IMG/VR virus record: IMGVR_UViG_3300020459_000077
Span: 1-22,284 of that record
DNA: 22,284 nucleotides
Origin: a virus
Reading direction: 5' to 3' (one strand)
This document shows, piece after piece, positions 2,426-22,221 of this stretch (its first letter is position 1; the number at the start of each line of letters is the position of its first letter). Below the pieces are notes generated by a model, which was not told the DNA's origin, made no database searches, and saw only the letters and a list, made by a program, of their open reading frames with translations. A program made the translations under genes and the position numbers.

Positions 2426-2859
2426 TTAATTCCTAGTTCTTTTTCAGTAACTACTTTAAATTCCCATTGACGATCTGCACACCATTCTCTTGCTTCTTTC
2501 CATTTTGCTTGGTTCTTAGCATATTCAAATGCTTCACGAATATATCCTTTAGTTTGCCTTTTTGGTTTTTTAGGTGGACTACATTGTTTTAAAGGTTTAA
2601 CTTCAATAACATATTTTTTTATAGCACCACCAGTTTCTTTTACCTTCATGTAGAAATCTGGAAAGTATCTGTGAGGTTTTTGATCTACGGGAGACACATA
2701 AGGTATTGCTATTTCTTCACTTGCCCATTCTAATACATTTGCATTCTTATCACAGTAAACCATAAATTTTCTTTCCCATAATGATCGAAATACTATATTA
2801 GTAGGATCACCTTTATATTTGCGAGGAAAAGATGGTTGATACTTTCCTTTATAAGCCAT
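2422..2859 (-). CDS. gp4: Head completion protein gp4 (nuclease-like fold)
   Basis: This 145-residue protein matches T4 gp4 (also called gp50), which finishes the filled head before the tail is attached. The N-terminus (MAYKGKYQPS, then KYKGDP, then FRSLWERKFM-YCD) and the HRYFPDFY and VIEVKP blocks are characteristic. D68 in FPDFY together with E86-x-K88 in IEVKP forms a PD-(D/E)xK pattern, with E49 (SEE) as a possible further acid, so a nuclease-like fold is likely. Whether it cuts DNA is not shown here. The length is close to T4 gp4 (150). The C-terminal third is strongly basic. No clear Shine-Dalgarno precedes the ATG at 2859; the late-promoter leader is only ~20 nt. It is the first gene of the minus-strand block. 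Confidence 0.85.
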   Translation of the reverse strand: MAYKGKYQPSFPRKYKGDPTNIVFRSLWERKFMVYCDKNANVLEWASEEIAIPYVSPVDQKPHRYFPDFYMKVKETGGAIKKYVIEVKPLKQCSPPKKPKRQTKGYIREAFEYAKNQAKWKEAREWCADRQWEFKVVTEKELGIK

Positions 2860-2866
2860 CTAAATA
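2860..2866 (+). promoter_or_regulatory. Late promoter CTAAATA for gp54 (faces the gp4 promoter)
   Basis: CTAAATA is a variant of the T4 late box and recurs before the fibre genes at 20735, 21436 and 22218. It lies one base beyond the start codon of gp4 and points right. Its transcript would start near 2872 and run through the opposing promoter to the gp54 ATG at 2926, giving a leader of ~50 nt. Confidence 0.65.
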
Positions 2867-2870
2867 GAAA

Positions 2871-2879
2871 TGATATAAT
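2871..2879 (+). promoter_or_regulatory. Possible extended -10 (TGATATAAT)
   Basis: TG-A-TATAAT is a perfect extended -10 element for the host housekeeping sigma factor, between the two late boxes. No good -35 is found at normal spacing (a TTGATA at 2836 is too far away). In A+T-rich DNA this may be chance. Confidence 0.3.
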
Positions 2880-2884
2880 ACATC

Positions 2885-2891
2885 TATTTAG
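2885..2891 (-). promoter_or_regulatory. Late promoter CTAAATA for the gp4 block
   Basis: The plus strand TATTTAG reads CTAAATA on the minus strand. The expected start point is near 2879, leaving ~20 nt before the gp4 ATG at 2859. It is the mirror image of the plus-strand box at 2860. Confidence 0.65.
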
Positions 2892-2925
2892 AGTGCCAGC
2901 ACCAATTCCAAGGAAAATATCGCAA

Positions 2926-3735
2926 ATGATGCCAACTTTTCAGAATGTGGCACAAACTTCCAATTATTTGGTTCAGTTTGGTCTGCCATCTTTTGGTGGG
3001 TTGAGAGGTTTTTTGCAGAAAAAAGGGATAGATTATAGATTTCATAATAATGAAATAGGTCTTTTGTGTAGTAGTGCTTTTCTACCAGGATCTGCATTTG
3101 CCCCAGAAGTTGTAACAGGTGAATATCAGGGGGTAGTTGAAACTATACCTCATACTAGAAATTTTACTAGAATTAAATTAGAATTTTATGTAGATAATGA
3201 ATATAAATCTTTGAAATTTTTAGAACATTGGATGGAGTATATTAGTGGTGCAAATTCAAAAGTATCTCCTTTAGATGATGCATATTATTTTAGATTTAAT
3301 TACCCAGAAGAATATAGATCAAACCAAACTAAGATAATTAAATTTGAAAAAAATTATAGACAGTTTCTTGAATATACTTTTAAAGGACTATTTCCTTTAG
3401 CATTGGATTCTACACGAGTTCAGTATCAAGATTCTAAAGTTTTAAAAGCAACATGTTCTTTTGCTTATGAGAGATATATTTGTGGAGAAGCTTCATCTGC
3501 TTCTGATAGAAGAGGAACTAGTATGAATAATAAATCTCAAGCAGCTAGTAGATTTGGGGGCAGTATTGATTTTGGTTCTCCACAGGATGCTCTTAATAAT
3601 GGTGCTCCTACAACAAATGAAGTTGTAAAAGAAGTTAATAAGGTTAAAACTATTACTGGTCAAGATGGGTTCAAATATGAATTTGGTTCAAAAATAGATG
3701 AAACTTTTGGACATGAGATAAGAACTTTCAAATAA
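2926..3735 (+). CDS. gp54: Baseplate tail-tube initiator gp54
   Basis: The product has 269 residues from the ATG at 2926 (269 codons plus stop; a second ATG follows directly at 2929). AAGGAAA lies ~10 nt upstream, while an earlier in-frame ATG at 2836 would run antisense through gp4 and has no ribosome site. The core reads SNYLVQFGLPS, then LCSSAFLPGS, GEYQGV-E-IPHTR, and FYVDNEYKSLKFLEHWMEYI. This is the pattern of the T4 tube-like fold shared by gp19, gp48 and gp54. T4 gp54 (about 320 residues) sits on gp48 and starts tube polymerisation. The C-terminal ~70 residues are polar and probably flexible. Placement beside gp48 and gp26 supports gp54, although another tube-like baseplate protein cannot be excluded. 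Confidence 0.7.
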   Translation: MMPTFQNVAQTSNYLVQFGLPSFGGLRGFLQKKGIDYRFHNNEIGLLCSSAFLPGSAFAPEVVTGEYQGVVETIPHTRNFTRIKLEFYVDNEYKSLKFLEHWMEYISGANSKVSPLDDAYYFRFNYPEEYRSNQTKIIKFEKNYRQFLEYTFKGLFPLALDSTRVQYQDSKVLKATCSFAYERYICGEASSASDRRGTSMNNKSQAASRFGGSIDFGSPQDALNNGAPTTNEVVKEVNKVKTITGQDGFKYEFGSKIDETFGHEIRTFK

Positions 3736-3772: not shown

Positions 3773-4492
3773 ATGCCTTTACCAAAAATTTCAACACCTT
3801 CTTATGAGTTGGTAGTTCCTTCTACAAAGAAGAAAATTAAATTCAGACCTTTTTTAGTTAAAGAAGAAAAAATTCTTATTTTGGCTATGGAGAGTCAAGA
3901 TAATGTACAGATTGCAAATGCTATTAAGGATGTTTTATCCTCATGTATTTTAACAAGAGGAGTTAAAGTAGATAAACTTGCTACTTTTGATATTGAATAT
4001 TTGTTTCTTAATATTCGTGGAAAGTCTGTTGGTGAAGAAGTTGAAGTTATGGTCACTTGTCCTGATGATGGTGAGACACAGGTTCCCACTACTATTAATC
4101 TTGATGAGATAAAAGTGAACATTAATAAAAAGCATTCTAGTGATATTAAACTAGATGATACTTTAACTTTGAGAATGAGATATCCTTCTATGGAAGAGTT
4201 TATTAAAACAAACTTTACACCTAGTGGTGATGTTAATGTAGATGATACTTTTGAGATGATTTCATCTTGTATAGATCAGATATATTCTGAAGAGGAATCT
4301 TGGGCAGCATCTGATTCTACTAAAAAAGAATTGAATGAATTTGTTGAGCAATTAAATTCAAAGCAATTTAAACAAATTGAAGAATTTTTTGAAACTATGC
4401 CTAAATTATCTCATACTGTTAAAGTTACAAATCCAAAAACAAAAGTTCAAAATGACGTTGTGTTGGAGGGTCTGCAAAGTTTTTTCGGGTAA
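3773..4492 (+). CDS. gp26: gp26-type baseplate hub/tail assembly protein
   Basis: This 239-residue protein matches the T4 gp26-type 'T4 baseplate' family in length and pattern. It has an N-terminal PLP-ISTPSYEL beta region, a KFRPFLVKEEK motif (~24-34), and FDIEYLFLNIR (~73-83). A cysteine-containing VTCPDDGE segment (~98-105) follows, then TLRMRYPSMEEF (~129-140) and an acidic helical C-terminal half. In T4, gp26 is needed for hub assembly. No Shine-Dalgarno is obvious, and no strict late box lies in the 37-bp gap after gp54. The last codons (AGT TTT TTC GGG TAA) carry a programmed -1 frameshift signal that would fuse residues 1-238 to the next reading frame. By position, directly before tape-measure-like genes, it corresponds to lambda gpG. 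Confidence 0.75.
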   Translation: MPLPKISTPSYELVVPSTKKKIKFRPFLVKEEKILILAMESQDNVQIANAIKDVLSSCILTRGVKVDKLATFDIEYLFLNIRGKSVGEEVEVMVTCPDDGETQVPTTINLDEIKVNINKKHSSDIKLDDTLTLRMRYPSMEEFIKTNFTPSGDVNVDDTFEMISSCIDQIYSEEESWAASDSTKKELNEFVEQLNSKQFKQIEEFFETMPKLSHTVKVTNPKTKVQNDVVLEGLQSFFG

Positions 4493-4522
4493 GTATGGCT
4501 CATGAAGATCTTGAGTCATACT
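4465..4522 (+). other. Programmed -1 ribosomal frameshift signal (gp26 to gp51-like fusion)
   Basis: Three elements lie in order. GGAGGG at 4465-4470 is a Shine-Dalgarno-like internal stimulator. The heptamer T TTT TTC at 4480-4486 is in the correct phase relative to gp26 codons TTT and TTC. GGGTA at 4487-4491 is a 5-nt spacer. An 11-bp stem follows (4492-4502 against 4512-4522, one G-U pair, 9-nt loop). After slipping back one base, translation reads CGG GTA AGT ATG GCT and enters the short frame ending at 4668. The product would be 298 residues (238 + RVS + 57). This is the dnaX-type arrangement, and lambda G/GT uses the same logic for the tail chaperone. Confidence 0.8.
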
Positions 4523-4668
4523 ATAAGGTTAATTTTGCGTTGATGCAACACCATAAATATAGCTTAACGGAGCTAGAAAATATGATTCCGTGGGAAAGGG
4601 AAATTTACTTATCTCTTTTAAAGCAATATATTGAAGAAGAAAATTTAAAACAGCAACAAAATGGCTGA
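4495..4668 (+). CDS. gp51: Short gp51-like frame (frameshift extension of gp26)
   Basis: The frame encodes 57 residues from ATG 4495 to TGA 4666-4668. It starts MAHEDLESYYKVNFALMQHH, then KYSLTELENMIPWEREIYL, then LLKQYIEEEN. It is a compact helical protein with the look of a tail-chaperone T extension: -NF-L--HH-YSL-ELE-MIPWER-IY. T4 has gene 51, the hub assembly catalyst, between 26 and 27, which suggests the name, but T4 gp51 is much longer, so the match is positional. The ATG sits in the frameshift hairpin, 2 nt after the gp26 stop, without its own Shine-Dalgarno at normal distance. It is therefore probably made as a fusion and possibly also by reinitiation. It overlaps the next gene by 8 nt. 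Confidence 0.7.
   Translation: MAHEDLESYYKVNFALMQHHKYSLTELENMIPWEREIYLSLLKQYIEEENLKQQQNG
4553..4559 (+). promoter_or_regulatory. Possible internal late promoter ATAAATA
   Basis: CCATAAATAT inside the gp51-like frame contains the late box, about 100 nt before the ATG at 4661. It could add extra transcripts of the tape-measure and hub genes. It is not at a gene boundary, so coincidence with the codons H-K-Y is possible. Confidence 0.35.
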
Positions 4669-6376
4669 ACCCATTAAATCACCAATAGCATCAGGAATAA
4701 CTGCCGTAAGAAATACTGTTTCTTCTAATGTGTTTAGTGGTGTGGGAAATACTGAGATTGATCCAGTATTTACAAAATGGGTAAAGACTAGAAGTGATGG
4801 TGCGGATGATAATGTACGTGCTCAAAATGCAAATACATTAACTAATATAGATGTACAATTAAAAAATATTAGTAATCAGAATAGTGTATTAACTAGTGCC
4901 TTACAGGTAATAGCATCAAATTTAAATGTAGCGACAGAGTTAGATAAAAGAAGAGAAGTAGCAAAAGCAAAAAGAGAACGGCAAGCTGCAGAAGCTGGAT
5001 TGCGTTCAGGAAAAGAACAGCAAATTGAATCAAGAATTCAAATGGCACTCATGGCTCCTGTTAAGAGAGTTGGTGCTAAACTTAAATTTGGTTTGAATAG
5101 ATTAACTTCTTTCTTTGCTATTTTGTTAGGTGGATGGTTAATTGATAAAACTGTCTCATTCTTACGAGCATTATCTGAGGGAAATCAAGATAAAGTAAAA
5201 GAAATACGTGTTACTATATTAAAAGGTCTTTTACTTGCTGGTGGAGCTCTTTTCCTTCTTAAAGCAGGTCTTACAAAGATTACATTTACACTTGCTACAT
5301 TAGCTGGAACTGTTGCAACATTCGGATTTAGGAATCTTGTATCTAGACCATTCCAAGCCATAGTTAATTTTTTAGCCAAACAAAGATTACTTAGTAATTT
5401 TAAAGGTGTTCAAGTTCCTGGTCCTGGTAGTGGCACTGGTAGTACTCAAGTAACACCACCAAAAACTGGTAATACTAAGACAGATACAAAAGGTAATACT
5501 AATATAAAAAACCAAAAGGGACCAAGACCAAACTTACCTAATACTAGATTTCAACAAGGTGTTTTCACAAAACCAGGAAATTTACAACTATTAATAGCTG
5601 CACTTTACTCAGCTCAAAATATTGCTGAAGGTGCAGATGCTACTACAGAATTATTGGATACTGGTGCAGGTTTAACTGCTATGGGATTTGCTCCTTGGTT
5701 GACTAGCCTGATGGGATTAAAAGGTCCTTGGGGTTTGCTTTCAAACATTATTCTTTCTAATATATTATTCACAGGTGGTAGACAACTTAGAGATCCATTA
5801 TATCAAAACACTTTAAAACTAGCACAATGGATTAGAACGCCAGGTAATGAGAATAAAACTATAGATGATTTACCTCCAGATCTTAAGGAGACTATTATAA
5901 ACGAATTGGGTCCTGGTGGAAAATTAGAACAATTGGGTAAGGATTTGGAAAGTGGTGATATAATGCCATCTGTAATGTCTGATATAGATCCATCAGAACT
6001 TATAAAAGAAAAGGATAAAAATACTAAAGATTTAATATCAAACATGATGGGTAGAGGTGCTGCTAAAGCAAGAATGGAAGCAGCAGAAGAAGAGAAAAAT
6101 AATAAGGAAATTGAAGCTAAAAAAATATCTGATCAGAAAATAATAGCAAGTAAGAATAAATCTGAGACTAAAAACCTAGTTGATAATTTATCTAATTTGG
6201 CTGAGGTATCACCAACAATTATACCTTTACCAATTGGAGATAGTGAACAATCTCAAGATGGTAGTAATGTAGCTGCTGGTGCTCAGGGTGGATCTGTGCC
6301 AAATATATCTTCATCAAATGTTGCTAATAGTTATGTTTATCTTGCTCTGAAGCATTATCAGGTAGCACCAGTATAG
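4661..6376 (+). CDS. Tape-measure-like tail protein (gp29-like), first of two
   Basis: The product has 571 residues. An N-terminal polar region (~40-130) with many N, Q, K and R looks like a coiled coil. Hydrophobic stretches follow at ~148-170 (LTSFFAILLGGWLIDKTV), ~186-222 and ~362-380, separated by a G-, T- and N-rich linker (~250-300). The C-terminus is charged and helical (~440-510), then S- and G-rich. Helical rods with a few hydrophobic segments typify tape measures; T4 gp29 is 590 residues and acts in the hub and tube length control. No direct gp29 motif was recognised, so the call rests on architecture, size and its place right after the chaperone-like genes. The ATG at 4661 overlaps the preceding frame by 8 nt. 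Confidence 0.55.
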   Translation: MAEPIKSPIASGITAVRNTVSSNVFSGVGNTEIDPVFTKWVKTRSDGADDNVRAQNANTLTNIDVQLKNISNQNSVLTSALQVIASNLNVATELDKRREVAKAKRERQAAEAGLRSGKEQQIESRIQMALMAPVKRVGAKLKFGLNRLTSFFAILLGGWLIDKTVSFLRALSEGNQDKVKEIRVTILKGLLLAGGALFLLKAGLTKITFTLATLAGTVATFGFRNLVSRPFQAIVNFLAKQRLLSNFKGVQVPGPGSGTGSTQVTPPKTGNTKTDTKGNTNIKNQKGPRPNLPNTRFQQGVFTKPGNLQLLIAALYSAQNIAEGADATTELLDTGAGLTAMGFAPWLTSLMGLKGPWGLLSNIILSNILFTGGRQLRDPLYQNTLKLAQWIRTPGNENKTIDDLPPDLKETIINELGPGGKLEQLGKDLESGDIMPSVMSDIDPSELIKEKDKNTKDLISNMMGRGAAKARMEAAEEEKNNKEIEAKKISDQKIIASKNKSETKNLVDNLSNLAEVSPTIIPLPIGDSEQSQDGSNVAAGAQGGSVPNISSSNVANSYVYLALKHYQVAPV

Positions 6377-6377
6377 T

Positions 6378-7811
6378 ATGGCTAAGACTCCGTTAGTATC
6401 ATCTGCAGATAGCCTTACTAATATAAGTAAGTCTTTAACAACTTTTGCGTCTAGCATGAGTAAATCTAGTCTTCTTGCTAGAAATATTGCAAAATCACTT
6501 AATAAAGATAATATATTTAAAAAACAAGTTATATCAGATGATGAATCGTTTTTTGTTAAAAGGAGACAGTCTTTTTTAAGAAAGAAGAGAGAGGAGGAGA
6601 TAGAAGCGAATAATACAGTTTCTGCAATTAAAGCACCAGGAAGAGTTATAAAAAATGCTGCTAAAGGATTTTTAGGTCGTTTGATGGATTTCTTTACCTT
6701 TACTATGTTAGGTTGGGCAATATTCCAAATACCTAAGATTATTAAGGGTATTGGTAATTTGATTAAGAGAATGGGAAGACTCAAGGATATTCTTACAGGA
6801 TTTCTTGGGGGAACTGTTGAAATGTTTAATATTATGGCTGAAAAATTAGATGGTGTATTGTCTTTTATTTTTCAATTTGATTTTGAAAAGGATAGAGATG
6901 AGATAGCGAAAAATGTAGATACTCTTAATAGAAGATTTGGTAGAATGAATAGTGATCTTACTGCTGGTATTAATGAATATGTCAGTTATGCAGATCAGGT
7001 TGATAAAGAAACTGCTGCATTACCAGATCCAGAAGATGAAGAGGAAGAAGAAAAAAATTGGTTTGGTAAATTTACTGACTGGGTTATTACACCTGTAGAG
7101 GAGAATGGTGATGTAGAAGATACTGATACTACAACTGATGAAGTAGAAGAAGTTACTGATGATCTTGAAGGCATTACAACAATGGCTACTGGTGGACTTC
7201 TTAAAAAGGGAGAAACTGCGGTGGTTGGTGATGATCCTAGTGGTAAAGGAAAAGAATCTAAAGAGTTAATTGTTGCTGATAAGGATTTACAAGTTATTCC
7301 AAATAATATTTTGGGTGCTTTGGAGTCTATTACTAAATCTGGGTCAAAAATAGACCCTTCATCCATGTTTGATAGTGGATCTATATCTTTATCTGGTATT
7401 AAATCACTAAGATCTACCTTGAAATCAACTGCAGAAGAAATGAGACCTATGATGGAAGGATTTGTAGGATCTATGAAAAAGACTATGAAAGATGAAGGTA
7501 TAACAGATTCTCTTAAGCAAGTTAATGAAACAATTGGTCCAGAATTAAAAGGTGTTTTTAAAGATGTTGAGAATAATTTTATTAATACACCAGAGGTTGA
7601 GAATTTAAAGGAAAGTTTAAAGGGTGTTGTTGAAGCTTTAAAACCAGAAAGAAAATCTCAAATTATTACGGTTCCTATTCCTACACAAAATTCTAATAAA
7701 CAAAATATGAATGTTAATGTATCTGAGGGATCTGTAAGTAGAGTAAGTCGTGGGGTAAATATAAAGGAGTATTATAAACACTTATCAACGTTAGTTACGG
7801 CATATACTTAA
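6378..7811 (+). CDS. Tape-measure-like tail protein, second of two
   Basis: This 477-residue protein starts one base after the preceding stop. Its N-terminus parallels the previous gene: SLTNISKSL, a basic coiled segment (KRRQSFLRKKREEE), then GFLGRLMDFFTFTMLGWAIF (~97-116), similar in order to its neighbour's FGLNRLTSFFAILLGGWLI. A D/E-rich stretch lies at ~214-264. At ~269-305, MATGGLLKKGETAVVGDDP then ELIVADKDLQVIPNNIL resembles the ATGG---GE-AVVGE-GPE----P motif common near the end of tape-measure proteins. The C-terminal part (~340-430) is helical. It is therefore probably a tail interior or hub protein related to the preceding gene. T4 gp28 is much shorter, so that name is not used. Confidence 0.55.
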   Translation: MAKTPLVSSADSLTNISKSLTTFASSMSKSSLLARNIAKSLNKDNIFKKQVISDDESFFVKRRQSFLRKKREEEIEANNTVSAIKAPGRVIKNAAKGFLGRLMDFFTFTMLGWAIFQIPKIIKGIGNLIKRMGRLKDILTGFLGGTVEMFNIMAEKLDGVLSFIFQFDFEKDRDEIAKNVDTLNRRFGRMNSDLTAGINEYVSYADQVDKETAALPDPEDEEEEEKNWFGKFTDWVITPVEENGDVEDTDTTTDEVEEVTDDLEGITTMATGGLLKKGETAVVGDDPSGKGKESKELIVADKDLQVIPNNILGALESITKSGSKIDPSSMFDSGSISLSGIKSLRSTLKSTAEEMRPMMEGFVGSMKKTMKDEGITDSLKQVNETIGPELKGVFKDVENNFINTPEVENLKESLKGVVEALKPERKSQIITVPIPTQNSNKQNMNVNVSEGSVSRVSRGVNIKEYYKHLSTLVTAYT

Positions 7812-15387: not shown

Positions 15388-16380
15388 ATGGCAATAGCAC
15401 CAGTAAATAAGTTTATTAATGTTGCTGTTCCTGTGGCACCAGGAGTTCAGAAACTTTATGAGGTTCCAACTGGAACTTCTGCTTTATTGCTATATGCACA
15501 AGTTGCTAATGTTGCCATTGGTGTGACTTATCCTACCACTACTTTTTGGCAAAGAAGAACTCAAAGAAGCACTGGTAGTGTAAGTGATATAAGAGTAATA
15601 CAGGATGCAGAAATACCACCACAGGATGCATTGGTTATGGTGGATGGTAGAATCGTATTAGAAAAAACTCCATTAGTAATAGATAGTTTATACATTCGTG
15701 GAACACAGCAAGGAGTTGGTATAGTTACTAATGTAGTTTATGATGAACCATCGGGAATTGCTACAGTTTCTACTTTAATAAAGCACGAATTTTCTGAAAA
15801 TCAGAAAATTACTATGGGTGGTATGTGGTTTACTTGCCCAACTTATTCTGGAATTACTACCAATCTTTTCCCAAGTCCACAAAGATCTTATACTGTAGAT
15901 CAGATTATAGGTAATGTTGGAACTTCTAAAACATTTTCAATTGATATTGGTGGTGGAGGAGGAAATCCTCATGTTTATAATACAGCAATACACAGATTTG
16001 TAAGAGCTAATCTTCAATGTGTAGAAGTAACTGCAAGTTCAAATGTTGCTGTAGGAACTAAATTTAATGTAACTAATGCATCTTATGTGGGATCTACAGG
16101 AGAATTGGAATTAACTATTGGTGCAAATACTTTAGCAAATGGAGATACAATAAAAATAGCAGAAAGATCCATAGTATTGACTTGTTCTATGGACAATCAT
16201 TTTAGTGAACACGAATATCCAAGAACAACAGATCCTGTATATGATTCTTCAATAACTCTTGCAGTTGGTGTTGCTAATAGCACAATTAGAGTTAATGTTG
16301 GTAAATCACACGCTGGTGGTTTTGTTGGTCCATTAGAAATGGAATTGACTGCGAGTATCCTAGAGAATAGTAATGTCTAA
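15388..16380 (+). CDS. Structural protein of unknown function, fibre-associated
   Basis: The product has 330 residues and no family that I recognise by name. The N-terminus ([27 protein letters not shown]) and repeated short strands throughout point to a beta-rich protein. Notable parts are TFWQRRTQR (~50), [22 protein letters not shown] (~115-136), [22 protein letters not shown] (~145-166) and an H-rich end (~270). The cell adhesion or fibre context comes only from its neighbours: it starts one base after the large fibre gene stop and overlaps the collagen-like fibre by 8 nt. It could be a fibre connector or a baseplate-attached domain. Confidence 0.65.
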
Positions 16381-18196
16381 GAGATATTTGAGTGGAAGGG
16401 TTAAAAGAACCCCACAAGATCAATTAAAAGATAATGAAAGGTATCTCGGATTAGAACAAGCAGAACCTAATCTTTCTGATCCAGTTTATGCTGGTCCTGT
16501 TCCTGCAGGTCAGCAGTATCAATTAGTTGCTGTTCCTGGTTTTGAAGGTAAAAGATATTGGGTTCCTGTTGGTGGTGGATTAATTCCAGGTGCTATTAGT
16601 GTATATGATGAAGGAGTTCTTGTTAGTGCTGCAAGTAGTATTACCCAACTTAATTTTGTTGGTGCAGCAGTAACGGCACAAGTTGATGTTATGCATCCTT
16701 CAGGACATCCAGGTGTTGCTGCGACTGTAACTGTTATACCTGTTACTATTGGTTCTGATCCTCCTATTAATCCAAATCATGGAGAGTTATGGTGGGAAGA
16801 TGATATAGGTGATTTATGTATTTGGTATGATGATGGTGATAGTAGTCAGTGGGTTACTGTAGTCGCTAGTGGAAATGGTGGAGGTCCTACAGGTCCTGCT
16901 GGTCCAGATGGTCCTCCTGGTGCTCCAGGTAGTGGTGGTCCTAATGGTCCTCCAGGTCCTCCTGGTGCAGATGGTGGAATTGGTACTCCAGGTGGACCTG
17001 GAGGTCCAGGTGATGATGGTCCTCCAGGACCTCCAGGTCCTCCAGGTCCAAGTGGTGGTCCTCCTGGTCCTCCAGGTTCTGACGGTCCTCCTGGTCCTCC
17101 AGGTTCTGATGGATCCGATGGATCTGATGGAAGTACAGGTCCTCCTGGTCCTCCAGGTCCTGGTGGTCCTGATGGTCCTCCTGGTCCTGGTGGTGGAACT
17201 GGATCTCCTGGTCCTACTGGTGATGATGGTCCTCCTGGTCCTCCTGGACCTGCTGGTGGTCCTCCTGGTCCTGAAGGTCCACCTGGATCTCCTGGTCCTT
17301 CAACTCCTGGTCCTACTGGTAATGATGGTCCTCCTGGTCCTCCTGGACCTGCTGGTGGTCCTCCAGGTCCTCCTGGTCCTCCTGGTGGAGATGGTCCTCC
17401 TGGTCCAGATGGTGATGATGGTTCACCTGGTTCTCCTGGTCCTCCAGGTTCTGATGGTGCGATACCTGCTGGTGTTATTACTATGTGGTCTGGTGCAGAA
17501 AATGCTATTCCAACTGGATGGACATTATGTGACGGACAAAATAGTACACCAGATTTAAGAAATAGATTTGTTGTTGGTGCTGGAACTGGTGGTAATTATT
17601 CTGTTACTAACACTGGTGGTAGTGCAAATGCAGTAGTTGTAGCTCACTCACACACTGCAAATACTTCTGTTAGTGGTGCTGGTTCTCACACTCACTCATT
17701 CTCAGGATCTGGATCAGATTCTCACACTCACTCATTCTCAGGTTCGGATTCATTCTCTGCATCTGGATCTCACTCTCATACATGGTCTGGATCTTCTTCT
17801 CACACTCACGGTGGAACTGCTACTGATTCTGGTCACCAACATACAACTGCTATTCCAATGATGAATACTGTTGCTGGTAATTCAGGAACTCAGAGTATTT
17901 GGGGTAGTGTTCAAAACTCTCTAACTTGGGGTGCATCTGCACAGATTAGTTTCTCAGGTGGTCCTGCAACAGTTAGTCTTTCAGGTTCTACAAGTTCTGA
18001 AAGTGTAAGTGTTTCTGGTTCTGTATCAGTATCTGGATCTACAAGTAATGAAGGTGTAAGTATAAGTGTTTCTGGAACTACTGGACCTGGTGGTTCTGGT
18101 GTAAGTGGTAGCACTACTATTGGTACTGAAGGTGTTACTGCAACTAATAAGAATTTACCTCCATATTATGCTCTATGTTACATCATGAAAACTTAA
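16373..18196 (+). CDS. Collagen-like tail fibre with gp12-type collar and His-rich tip
   Basis: The product has 607 residues in four parts. (1) A head domain (~1-130) resembles the start of other virion proteins here. (2) [26 protein letters not shown] module (~137-163). (3) A collagen-like region of mostly GPP, GPT and GSD triplets (~171-361). (4) A phage tail-collar domain starting [20 protein letters not shown] and continuing [12 protein letters not shown] (~363-406). Beyond this, ~424-490 contains HSH, HTH and HQH motifs, as at the metal-binding tip of T4 gp12, and the end reads [14 protein letters not shown]. It probably forms a trimer that binds the host surface. The start overlaps the preceding gene by 8 nt (ATGTCTAA). 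Confidence 0.8.
17207..17364 (+). repeat. Direct DNA repeats in the collagen-coding stretch
   Basis: A 59-bp unit at 17207-17265 recurs at 17306-17364 with one mismatch (gat/aat). A shorter piece recurs in the next fibre gene near 18427-18460. These G-P-P repeats encode collagen triplets and give targets for recombination between fibre genes. Confidence 0.8.
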
Positions 18197-18224: not shown

Positions 18225-20738
18225 ATGTCAGGACATACTCCCAGAATTGATTTTCCATCTAATCCTAATGTAGGAGAAGATTATGTTTACAATAACTCCA
18301 TTTGGAGATGGGATGGTTATGTCTGGAGAAGAATTCCTGATCCAGGTGCTCCAGGTCAACCTGGTCCTACTGGTGCTCCTGGTTTAACTGGTCCTTCTGG
18401 TCCTCCTGGTTCTGAAGGTCCTGTAGGTCCTCCTGGACCTGCTGGTGGTCCTCCTGGTCCTCCAGGTGATGATGGTTCACCTGGTTCTCCAGGTGCAGAT
18501 GGTCCTCCTGGTATTGGTGGTCCAACTGGTCCTCCTGGTCCTGGTGGAAATCCAGGACCTCCTGGTCCTTCTGGTGTTGGAACTCCTGGTCCAACTGGTC
18601 CTGTAGGTCCAACTGGTCCTGTAGGTCCTGATGGTCCATCTGGTCCTCCTGGTCCTGGTTCAGGTCCAGCAGTTACTGAAGTATTTGTAAAACAATATAA
18701 AGAAGATGGCGTAGAACGAAGTTGTGAAAGTCCTGTTTTTGTCACTGGTGGTGATACAATTGGGATTGGATCAACAAGTAATGCTTACGGAAATAGATTT
18801 GCTCAGAATGATGATCCTACTACTTCTGCTGGTGGTAGTTGGAATGTTTGTGATGGAGATTTATGGTATGATTTAGATACTGGTGCTGGTGGTGGACCTG
18901 GACCTGCAGGTCCTCCTGGTCCTCCTGGTCCAGGTGGAACAGGTCCAGCAGGTCCTCCAGGTCCCACAGGTGATGATGGTCCTCCTGGTCCTAATGGTAA
19001 TGATGGAACTCCTGGAACTCCTGGAACTGATGGAACTGATGGAACTCCTGGAACTGATGGTAATCCAGGACCTCCAGGTCCTCCAGGTCCTGGTGGTGGT
19101 AGTGGTGGTGCTAATGTAACTACTGATGATGTTCCTCCAACTAACCCTTCTGATGGTGATCTTTGGTGGGATTCTGTTAATGGTAGATTAAATGTTTATT
19201 ATCAAGATGTTGACAGTTCGCAATGGGTTAGTGCTAATGGTGTAGCTGCTGGTCCTGCAGGTCCTCCAGGTTCTCCAGGTGCAGATGGTAATGCTGCTTT
19301 ACAAATTAGTGAAACTCCACCAACTACACCAACTCCAGTTTCTGGAGATATGTGGTGGGAAAGTGATACAGGAAATTTATATGTTTATTATGATGATGGG
19401 GATAGTAGTCAGTGGGTAGCAACAGCTCAAGGACCTGTTGGTCCTACTGGATCTCCAGGTACTCCAGGATCTAATGGAACTGACGGAAATCCAGGTCCTC
19501 CTGGTCCTTCTGGATCTCAAAGATTCACAACATTTACTAATAAAACCAACGCTTATAATTTACAAGCGAGTGATATTGGAAATGTTATTAAAATGACATC
19601 TCCAAGTAGTGGTACGAATTTACAACTTGGAATTCCTGATTTATCTTCTTCCCTTAGTTATGGTGATGAAGTTAGAATACAAAATGGTGCTGATGATTTC
19701 ATATTAGTTACTACTAGTGCCACTACTGTTTATTGGGGAGGTGGAGTTAATTCTTCATCTAGCACTGCTGTGGGTCAGGAAGCATTTACAACACCAGGAT
19801 CATATAGTTGGACATGTCCTCTTGGTGTATCAGTAGTTTCTGCTGTTGTTGTTGGTGGAGGTGGAGGTGGTGGAAACGTTCGATCAACTACTACACCTGG
19901 AGGTCTAGGATTTGGTTTCTATGGTGGAACTGGTGGAGCACTTGGATGGAAGAATAATATTTCAGTAACACCAGGTCAAACATACGCAGTAGTAGTGGGT
20001 GACGGTGGTAGTAGACAAACTAATCCTTTGGGTGGTGATGGAACTCCAGGAACTCATTCTTATTTTATAAACACAACTACTGTCAAAGCAGAAGGTGGTG
20101 GAGTTGGTGGATTTAATGGAGGTCCTTCAACATATGTTGGTGATGGTGGTGGAGAAGGTGGTCATGGTGGTGGATATAATAATGGTTGTGCTGGTGGTGG
20201 TGGAGCTGGTGGATATACTGGTGATGGTGGTCGAGGTGGTTCTGGAACGGCATCACCTCCCAATTCAGGTGTTGGTGGTGCAGCAGCAGGAGGAACTGGT
20301 AGTAGTGTAAGTGGTGGTGCTGGTGGTGGAGGAGGAGTAGGTATACTTGGTCAAGGGTCTAATGGTAGTGGTATTACTGGTAATGCTGAAGGTGGACCAG
20401 GAGGATCAGGCGGTTCTGATGGTGAAGGTGGTTTTAATGTAACTGGTTCTCCTATGGTAACAGGACAAGCTGGTGCTGGTGGTGAATATGGTGGAGGTGG
20501 TGGAATGGGTAGTTCAGGTTATAATACTGCAGGTAGAGGTGGTCATGGTGCTGGTGGTGCTGTAAGAATTATATGGGGTGCTGGTAGAGCTTATCCAAGC
20601 ACTTTAACTACTGATCAAACTCCAGTTTCAGGTTCTACATCTTCTACAGGTAATAGAAAAATAGCTGGATATTCTTTGATTACATTAACTTATATTGGTA
20701 ATAATACATGGAACATTCATGGTGATGGAGTCTTCTAA
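18225..20738 (+). CDS. Modular collagen-like fibre with inserted glycine-rich domain
   Basis: The product has 837 residues. The head (RIDFPSNPN...[12 protein letters not shown]) matches the start of two later fibres. Collagen-like tracts lie at ~40-147, ~224-295, ~345-357 and ~404-431. Between them sit a unique segment (~148-222) and two copies of the WWD...YY-D-DSSQWV module (~297-340 and ~359-403). A C-terminal beta domain starts [25 protein letters not shown] (~432) and pauses at [18 protein letters not shown]. It then appears to resume at [20 protein letters not shown] (~805-837). Between lies a glycine-rich region (~515-790), mostly GG and GGG runs, opening [12 protein letters not shown] and closing [21 protein letters not shown]. 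The latter resembles polyglycine adhesin domains of T4-like phages such as S16 gp38. Host binding is inferred. Confidence 0.75.
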
Positions 20739-20746: not shown

Positions 20747-21439
20747 ATGGCAGCATTTGATTTTCCAAATAGTCCTTCTCTTGACGATACCCATACTGAA
20801 AATGGGGTAGAGTGGAAGTATAATGGATATGCTTGGGATAGAGTAGAAACTGCTGGACCTGCAGGTCCTCCTGGTCCTCCTGGTCCAGCAACACCTGGTC
20901 CTCCTGGACCTCCAGGTTCTGATTCAACAACACCTGGTCCTCCTGGACCTCCAGGTTCTGATTCAACAACACCTGGTCCTCCTGGACCTCCAGGTTCTGC
21001 TGGACCTGCAGGTCCTCCTGGTCCTACAGGACCTAGTGGTATTCAGTCTTTAAGGAAATTTGATGTAGATGCACCTTCATCTTCTTATTATAGAATTGAT
21101 GGTACTGATGTTCCAGATTCACCAGCTCAGAATCCAACCCTAATATTAATCAGGGGATTTACTTATGAATTTGTTGTAAATGCAAGTGGTCATCCATTCT
21201 GGATAAAAACTACACAAACTACTGGAACTAATGATGCATATTCTGCTGCATCAAACAATGGAACTCAATCAGGACAAATATTTTTAACTGTTCCAATGAA
21301 CGCACCTAATATTCTGTATTATATTTGTCAGTATCATAGTAGTATGACTGGAATTATTAACATATACGATCAAACAGAGATATATTCTTCAGGTTCAGTC
21401 GCTGCTCCATTTGAAAGTAAATGGCACATATCTATCTAA
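20747..21439 (+). CDS. Collagen-like fibre with C-terminal cupredoxin-like domain
   Basis: The product has 230 residues. The head ([20 protein letters not shown], ~4-23) is shared with the fibre at 21859. A collagen-like tract of ~37-98 contains two full copies and one near-complete copy of a [13 protein letters not shown] unit. The C-terminal domain (~105-207) is beta-rich. Its key residues are H149 (in SGHPFWIK), C194 and H197 (in YYICQYH) and M200 (in SSMTG). Order and spacing match type I copper sites: C-x2-H-x2-M as in amicyanin and an earlier His about 45 residues before. It is therefore probably a cupredoxin-fold fibre tip. Copper binding is not proven; it differs from the phage-borne plastocyanin petE because it is fused to a structural fibre. 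Confidence 0.75.
20891..20999 (+). repeat. 39-bp tandem repeat, 2.8 perfect copies
   Basis: Copies start at 20891, 20930 and 20969, and each begins ACACCTGGTCCTCC. The third stops at base 31. The perfect identity at DNA level shows a recent expansion of the collagen tract by a 13-residue unit. Confidence 0.9.
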
Positions 21440-21463: not shown

Positions 21464-21859
21464 ATGGCAGCAACAGTACATACAGGGAATAATCAAAATT
21501 TTTCTTACACCAATAACACTGGTGGAAATGTTCGTGTTGTTATTAGCTTAGCTCTTAATAATACAAGTGTTCAAGCTACTACAAATGGTATTAAGATAAG
21601 GTGTGGTCCTCCTGGAAGTCCAGATATTCTACAGGCCAATAGTAGTCAAAATGCTAGGTTCAATGGTATTGGTAAGAATATTGCAAGACAGGGAGGAAGT
21701 AATAGTTCAGATGGAGTAGGTGCTTCTGCTAGTAATGATGTTGATTGTATGTGTACTGAGTTTTACTTAGCTGAGGGACATAGTATAGATGTACAAGGTG
21801 TCTCTGGTTCTTATCCACTCAAATTTTATAATATATTAACTATACCAGAGGGTAACTAA
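21464..21859 (+). CDS. Small fibre-cassette protein of unknown function
   Basis: The product has 131 residues, with no family that I recognise. It starts MAATVHTGNNQNFSYTNNTGGNVRVVISL and is beta-rich and N- and S-rich; it contains RCGPPGSPD (~46-54) and a DCMC segment (~93-97). The last part reads EFYLAEGHSIDVQG, then PLKFYNILTIPEGN. No signal peptide or membrane segment is seen. It could be a fibre tip or a chaperone-like partner; neither is shown. It is likely paralogous to the partial gene at 22246, which begins MAATVLTGN. The stop overlaps the next start by one base (TAATG), so translation is coupled to the next fibre. Confidence 0.65.
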   Translation: MAATVHTGNNQNFSYTNNTGGNVRVVISLALNNTSVQATTNGIKIRCGPPGSPDILQANSSQNARFNGIGKNIARQGGSNSSDGVGASASNDVDCMCTEFYLAEGHSIDVQGVSGSYPLKFYNILTIPEGN

Positions 21860-22221
21860 TGGCAGTAGATTTCCCAAATAGTCCTTCGACTAATGATACT
21901 CATACTGAGAATGGTTATACATGGGAGTATGATGGAACGACTTGGATAATTCAATCAACTGCAGCCGCTGGACCTCCAGGTCCTCCTGGTCCAGCAACTC
22001 CTGGTCCTCCAGGACCTTCAGGTGGAAGTTCAGTAACTACTGATGATAATCCTCCAACTAATCCTAATGATGGTGATGTATGGTGGGACTCTCAAAATGG
22101 TAGATTAAATGTTTATTATCAGGATGCTGATAGCTCTCAATGGGTGGATGCTACTGGTAGAGGAATTCTTAATCCTTCTACTCCTATATTTGAAATAAAA
22201 AATTGGAATATGCCACTCTAA
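21859..22221 (+). CDS. Short collagen-like fibre with WWD module
   Basis: The product has 120 residues. The head (VDFPNSPSTNDTHTENGYTW) is shared with the 20747 fibre. A short collagen tract (~36-54) is followed by a VTTDDNPPTNPNDGDVWWDS...YYQDADSSQWV module (~57-95), almost identical to a module of the 837-residue fibre. The last residues (ILNPSTPIFEIKNWNMPL) are unique. It lacks a large C-terminal tip domain, so it may be a truncated or minimal fibre, or an anchor for another protein. It starts at the TAATG overlap with the preceding gene. Confidence 0.7.
   Translation: MAVDFPNSPSTNDTHTENGYTWEYDGTTWIIQSTAAAGPPGPPGPATPGPPGPSGGSSVTTDDNPPTNPNDGDVWWDSQNGRLNVYYQDADSSQWVDATGRGILNPSTPIFEIKNWNMPL

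Follow-up and report, generated by a model that had tools for sequence, protein, structure and literature searches.

The locus raised one question: is the short open frame that follows gene 26 in this phage DNA a separate small gene 51, or is it the far end of gene 26 itself, reached by ribosomes that slip back one base? The window, meaning the whole 22,284-nucleotide stretch analysed (IMG/VR virus record IMGVR_UViG_3300020459_000077), is a viral contig closely related to Prochlorococcus phage P-SSM2. A sequence-only reading had proposed a -1 frameshift joining gp26 to a short gp51-like frame, and comparison with relatives, covering the heptamer, the RNA structure and the constraint on the -1 frame, supports that proposal. 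Taken together, and with high confidence, the locus is interpreted here as the place where a marine T4-like cyanophage resembling P-SSM2 encodes its tail assembly chaperone (TAC), a programmed -1 frameshift very probably yielding both a short and a long form. The features on which the question turns are these:

3773-4492, plus strand: gp26 (TAC-N), the putative short tail assembly chaperone, 239 aa, 0 frame (PF12322; phrog_150; 82% identity to P-SSM2 gp26)
4480-4486, plus strand: slippery heptamer T TTT TTC, in phase (sequence; T TTT TTN in 181 of 183 non-redundant relatives)
4490-4492, plus strand: 0-frame stop TAA, one codon past the heptamer (sequence; identical heptamer-stop distance in 168 of 181 relatives)
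4486-4668, plus strand: -1 frame, 60 residues, putatively the C-terminal domain (TAC-C) that the shift adds (phrog_634; phrog_150; T4 gp51 profile)
4495-4668, plus strand: 57-aa ORF listed as gp51, a gene in its own right, in the annotation of P-SSM2 and other cyanophages (no conserved start codon)

Membership of gp26 in the T4 gp26/gp51 N-terminal family was clearly established by PF12322 (T4_baseplate; 4.9e-77, 258.9 bits against a curated cut-off of 24.5) and by phrog_150 (5.1e-84). Renewed reading of the DNA reproduced every position previously assigned to GGAGGG, the heptamer, the spacer, the stem and the end of the -1 frame, together with the length of the predicted fusion, 298 residues made up of 238 plus 60. 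The anatomy and phase of the site can be read directly from the 3' end of gp26, which runs AGT (4478-4480), TTT TTC (to 4486), GGG, TAA (4490-4492), placing the heptamer in the X XXY YYZ phase. However, sites of the in-phase X XXA AAN or X XXT TTN class number 55 in the roughly 7,260 codons of the window, so a lone heptamer proves little and the case rests on comparison. The frequency of the class is also what would favour a chance heptamer and hairpin beside two frames that are never fused, a possibility to be set against the conservation described below.

For the comparison, 329 loci in which the end of gp26 is complete were gathered from IMG/VR and from annotated phage genomes; a 90% cut left 183 non-redundant loci, and the conservation counts rest on these. 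As the sequence-only reading had anticipated, relatives keep the heptamer in phase: one lies near the gp26 stop in 181 of the 183 (173 TTTTTTC, seven TTTTTTT and one TTTTTTG), it was in phase in the window and in each of the 80 relatives examined first, and it persists down to about 25-35% gp26 identity. Direct checks located it in Stenotrophomonas phage Mendera, Agrobacterium OLIVR5, Delftia PhiW-14, Aeromonas 65.2 and PX29, and Vibrio D480 and nt-1, with variant forms in Sinorhizobium phiN3 (TTTTTTT) and Rhizobium RHph_Y68 (TTTTTTG). The codon preceding Phe-Phe always ends in T while its residue varies (S, N, D, A, G, H or T), and Phe-Phe elsewhere in gp26 is coded TTT TTC in only 12 of 195 cases. 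Measured from the end of the stop, the heptamer sits at -13 in 168 relatives and at -10, -16, -19 or -34 in the other 13, where it is still in phase with an open -1 frame. Only two of the 183 are without it: T4, where gene 51 stands apart, and Vibrio phage 1.255.O, which is listed under Ackermannviridae. It is also absent from a second Ackermannviridae phage, Vibrio phage YC, which was checked separately. In both Vibrio phages (position 3214 of loci L086 and L339, respectively) gp26 ends in TAATG and a gp51-like -1 frame follows with no canonical heptamer, an arrangement that may reflect stop-start reinitiation or another slip site.

The -1 frame runs from CGG at 4486 to the stop at 4666-4668 and is open from a point 5' of the slip site onward. 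Its peptide is matched by phrog_634, the gp51 C-terminal domain (1.6e-29), and by the C-terminal part of phrog_150, the gp26 family (1.1e-8), and a profile built from the relatives' -1 peptides matches residues 200-246 of T4 gp51 (3e-9). The frame had been described as gp51-like, and so it is, with the qualification that it corresponds solely to the gp51 C-terminal domain and not to a shrunken independent gp51. Its openness in relatives, a further point on which the earlier proposal depended, is conserved, the extension being 51-70 codons long in all 178 complete cases. The -1 residue immediately after Phe-Phe is Arg in 149 of 168 relatives, whereas the 0-frame residue at that place varies (G, A, V, S, E and others), and since the Arg is kept while its 0-frame counterpart changes, the -1 frame is evidently constrained 5' of the ATG at 4495.

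These observations bear directly on the proposition that the 57-aa frame is an independent gene 51 translated from ATG 4495, possibly by ribosomes that reinitiate once past the stop of gp26. That ATG lies just 3 nt past the stop, and the ORF carries a gp51 annotation in P-SSM2 and many other cyanophages. Nevertheless, the start is not conserved, 44 of 181 relatives lacking any ATG, GTG or TTG over the opening 12 codons of the -1 frame; the annotations of S-CAM4 and Aeromonas 65.2 show no gene at this place; GGAGGG is 24 nt from the ATG, which itself lies inside the hairpin; in T4 the domain is fused to a gp26-like N-terminal domain; and separate initiation leaves unexplained the conservation of both the heptamer and the Arg upstream of the ATG. 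An independent gene is accordingly considered very unlikely. The unannotated frames occupy positions 3215-3392 of the S-CAM4 locus (L090) and 3206-3368 of the Aeromonas 65.2 locus (L087), and the long form of the chaperone is consequently absent from the annotation of both phages.

The presence of separate genes 26 and 51 in T4, a premise of the sequence-only reading, was confirmed in the T4 genome. Both products, gp26 (208 aa) and gp51 (249 aa), match PF12322, and on that homology the N-terminal ~200 residues of T4 gp51 are a gp26 paralogue; because the two T4 proteins share this domain, cyanophage gp26 would correspond to the short chaperone and the fusion to the long one. T4, Shewanella Thanatos-1 and Aeromonas avDM4 thus differ from the window in devoting a gene each, the two now divergent, to the short and the long form rather than using one frameshifted gene: T4 gp26 lacks the slippery heptamer that window gp26 carries, while T4 gp51 bears a C-terminal domain like that of the window's -1 frame. 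Other Straboviridae (65.2, PX29 and nt-1) retain the frameshift layout. Sullivan et al. (2010; PMC3037559) recorded that gp51 of cyanophages and marine vibriophages lacks the first ~200 residues, a deficit explicable if gp26 supplies them through the frameshift.

Two further elements flank the slip site:

4465-4470, plus strand: GGAGGG, Shine-Dalgarno (SD)-like element within gp26, 9 nt 5' of the slip site (sequence; SD-like match in relatives)
4492-4522, plus strand: putative stimulatory RNA hairpin, 11-bp stem, 5 nt past the heptamer, containing ATG 4495 (folding energy; selection over 181 relatives)

The stem is formed by pairing of AGTATGGCTCA (4492-4502) with TGAGTCATACT (4512-4522), giving 10 Watson-Crick pairs and one G-U pair, and is separated from the heptamer by the 5-nt spacer at 4487-4491. 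Its minimum free energy of -15.6 kcal/mol corresponded to z = -4.6 against dinucleotide shuffles, none of 200 being as good, and to z = -5.05 against a synonymous-codon null. When that null, in which the -1 peptide is retained and synonymous codons are drawn, was applied to the 51 nt 3' of the slip site in 181 relatives, the mean z was -2.29 (Wilcoxon p 1.2e-27), with 58% of relatives at rank 0.05 or better and about 25% at z above -1. A positional scan of 90 relatives gave z = -2.59 only at the slip site, other windows ranging from +0.31 to -0.84, and on these folding profiles RNA structure is selected only there. The stem sequence and its register vary among clades (registers 42 and 41, and a short GGTCC/GGACC hairpin), so that, as judged by comparative folding, the stem is conserved as structure and not as sequence. 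Stem covariation had been put forward as a check on the original proposal; selection for structure at the slip site bore the proposal out, but column covariation of the window stem was modest (106 relatives) and the stem sequence is not kept. The register shifts between clades account for the modest covariation, making the energy profile the better test.

With the structural data in place, the chance reading has a probability close to nil: the common heptamer class notwithstanding, 181 of 183 relatives conserve this member of it and structure is selected at this single place, and chance is ruled out jointly by that conservation, the homology of the -1 frame, the stem and the placing of the heptamer a single codon short of the stop. 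The same data bear on transcriptional slippage, by which the T6 run would add one base to some mRNAs and give the same fusion. A run of six T residues could in principle slip, and the product would be identical; yet runs of six are short, the run has not been lengthened by selection (173 TTTTTTC as opposed to 7 TTTTTTT), and a phase-specific heptamer with a hairpin 5 nt away fits ribosomal slippage. Slippage by the polymerase is therefore regarded as exceedingly improbable, and programmed ribosomal frameshifting is the reading retained.

An SD-like match of four bases was found 5' of the slip site in 136 of 181 relatives. The GGAGGG is partly a consequence of a conserved Leu-Glu-Gly peptide; the GAG codon is nevertheless over-used there (90 of 123 Glu-Gly cases against a background of 30%), and the element is a probable frameshift stimulator. 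As a ribosome-binding site for a gene starting at ATG 4495, GGAGGG was rejected on account of its distance.

Under the retained mechanism, most ribosomes would stop at the TAA to release the short form, whereas a minority, paused by the hairpin and probably also by SD-like pairing at GGAGGG, would move back by one base at T TTT TTC, where the two Phe tRNAs would re-pair with UUU. Translation in the -1 frame would then continue to 4668 and produce the 298-aa long form (TAC-NC), with the predicted junction peptide ...SFFRVSMAHEDLE... and a C-terminal domain equivalent to the one that closes gp51 in T4. If the system works as lambda G/GT does, a coat of many short and few long copies would form on the tail-length protein and draw in tail tube subunits. 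The sequences themselves show the anatomy and phase of the site, its conservation, the selection for structure and the homology of both domains to T4 gp26/gp51; slippage itself, its efficiency, the product ratio and the chaperone function are inferred, and a literature search found no ribosome-profiling paper on a cyanophage.

The genes surrounding the locus are relevant to that function:

2836-3735, plus strand: tail tube protein gene, directly 5' of gp26 (phrog_45, 3.3e-35; PF23849)
4661-6376, plus strand: gene for a 571-aa candidate client, likened to a tape measure solely for its position (without family match; paralogue of the next gene)
6378-7811: 477-aa protein, second gene 3' of the chaperone locus (without Pfam or PHROG match)

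The true start of the tail tube gene probably lies near 2902, as in P-SSM2. On the minus strand at 2422-2859, Pfam identifies a TnsA-like endonuclease N-terminal domain in a gene whose positional homologue in P-SSM2 is annotated as head completion protein gp4. The two genes following the locus had been called tape-measure-like, a description that was not established beyond their position: neither has a Pfam or PHROG family match, and hhalign detected no similarity of either protein to T4 gp29. They proved to be paralogues of one another along ~180 residues at the N-terminus (hhalign 99.8%), and it would be unusual for two tape-measure-like proteins to be encoded in tandem. A good predicted model of gp26 (pLDDT 88) was used in a fold search of the PDB, in which the HK97 tail assembly chaperone 2ob9 ranked second and sixth at non-significant E values (1.4 and 1.7), a likeness that is suggestive at most; at the sequence level, searching the PDB with a profile of gp26 returned nothing meaningful, and a mixed non-cyanophage gp26 alignment was too divergent to serve as a search query. 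Further downstream, four genes (16373-18196, 18225-20738, 20747-21439 and 21859-22221) contain collagen-like Gly-Pro-Pro repeats and probably encode tail fibre or virion surface proteins.

The likeness of this layout to dnaX and lambda G/GT, noted from the outset, was upheld. With lambda G/GT it shares a -1 shift site close to where the short gene ends, a long form with an extra C-terminal domain, and a location 3' of the tail tube gene, but the slippery sequence differs, that of lambda being GGGAAAG. With dnaX it shares an internal SD-like element, an X XXY YYZ heptamer and a downstream stem at similar spacing; dnaX is, however, a different gene with a different function, and shifting shortens its product while lengthening that of the window.

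Vladimirov and colleagues reportedly found frameshifting to be conserved in several T4-like groups, T4 itself using genes 26 and 51. Later articles credit Vladimirov, Gautam and Davidson 2022 (Virology 566:9-15; PMID 34826709) with describing poly-T slip sites in the TAC-N genes of T4-like phages (PMC12846349) and the strategy, used by some of these phages, of one short and one fused gene (PMC10274946), and as so described the chaperones concerned belong to the same gp26/gp51 family as those of the window. A 2016 review had excepted T4 from the conserved G-T frameshift (PMC5009743). The suggestion that T4-like phages use the tail-chaperone logic of siphophages was thus a correct inference but, going by these accounts of the 2022 work, not a new one, the core idea having already been published. 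Three points were not found in the accessible literature: the count showing the heptamer to be near-universal, the replacement of the hairpin from clade to clade, and the absence of the heptamer from two Ackermannviridae-type phages.

For the wider family, we give an even chance to the view that a single ancestral -1 frameshift chaperone gene extends across T4-like phages with hosts from cyanobacteria to Vibrio, its heptamer near-frozen and its hairpin repeatedly re-invented in new registers, and that duplication into genes 26 and 51 replaced the frameshift within Straboviridae. If true, the exchangeable stimulator would provide a natural series for measuring how changes in the stem hold the product ratio constant. 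On the frameshift reading itself, a large group of marine phages shares lambda-type chaperone logic through a slip site kept across very distant relatives, and the two 'genes' (gp26 and gp51) that hundreds of records enter separately should be merged in annotation into a single joined product.
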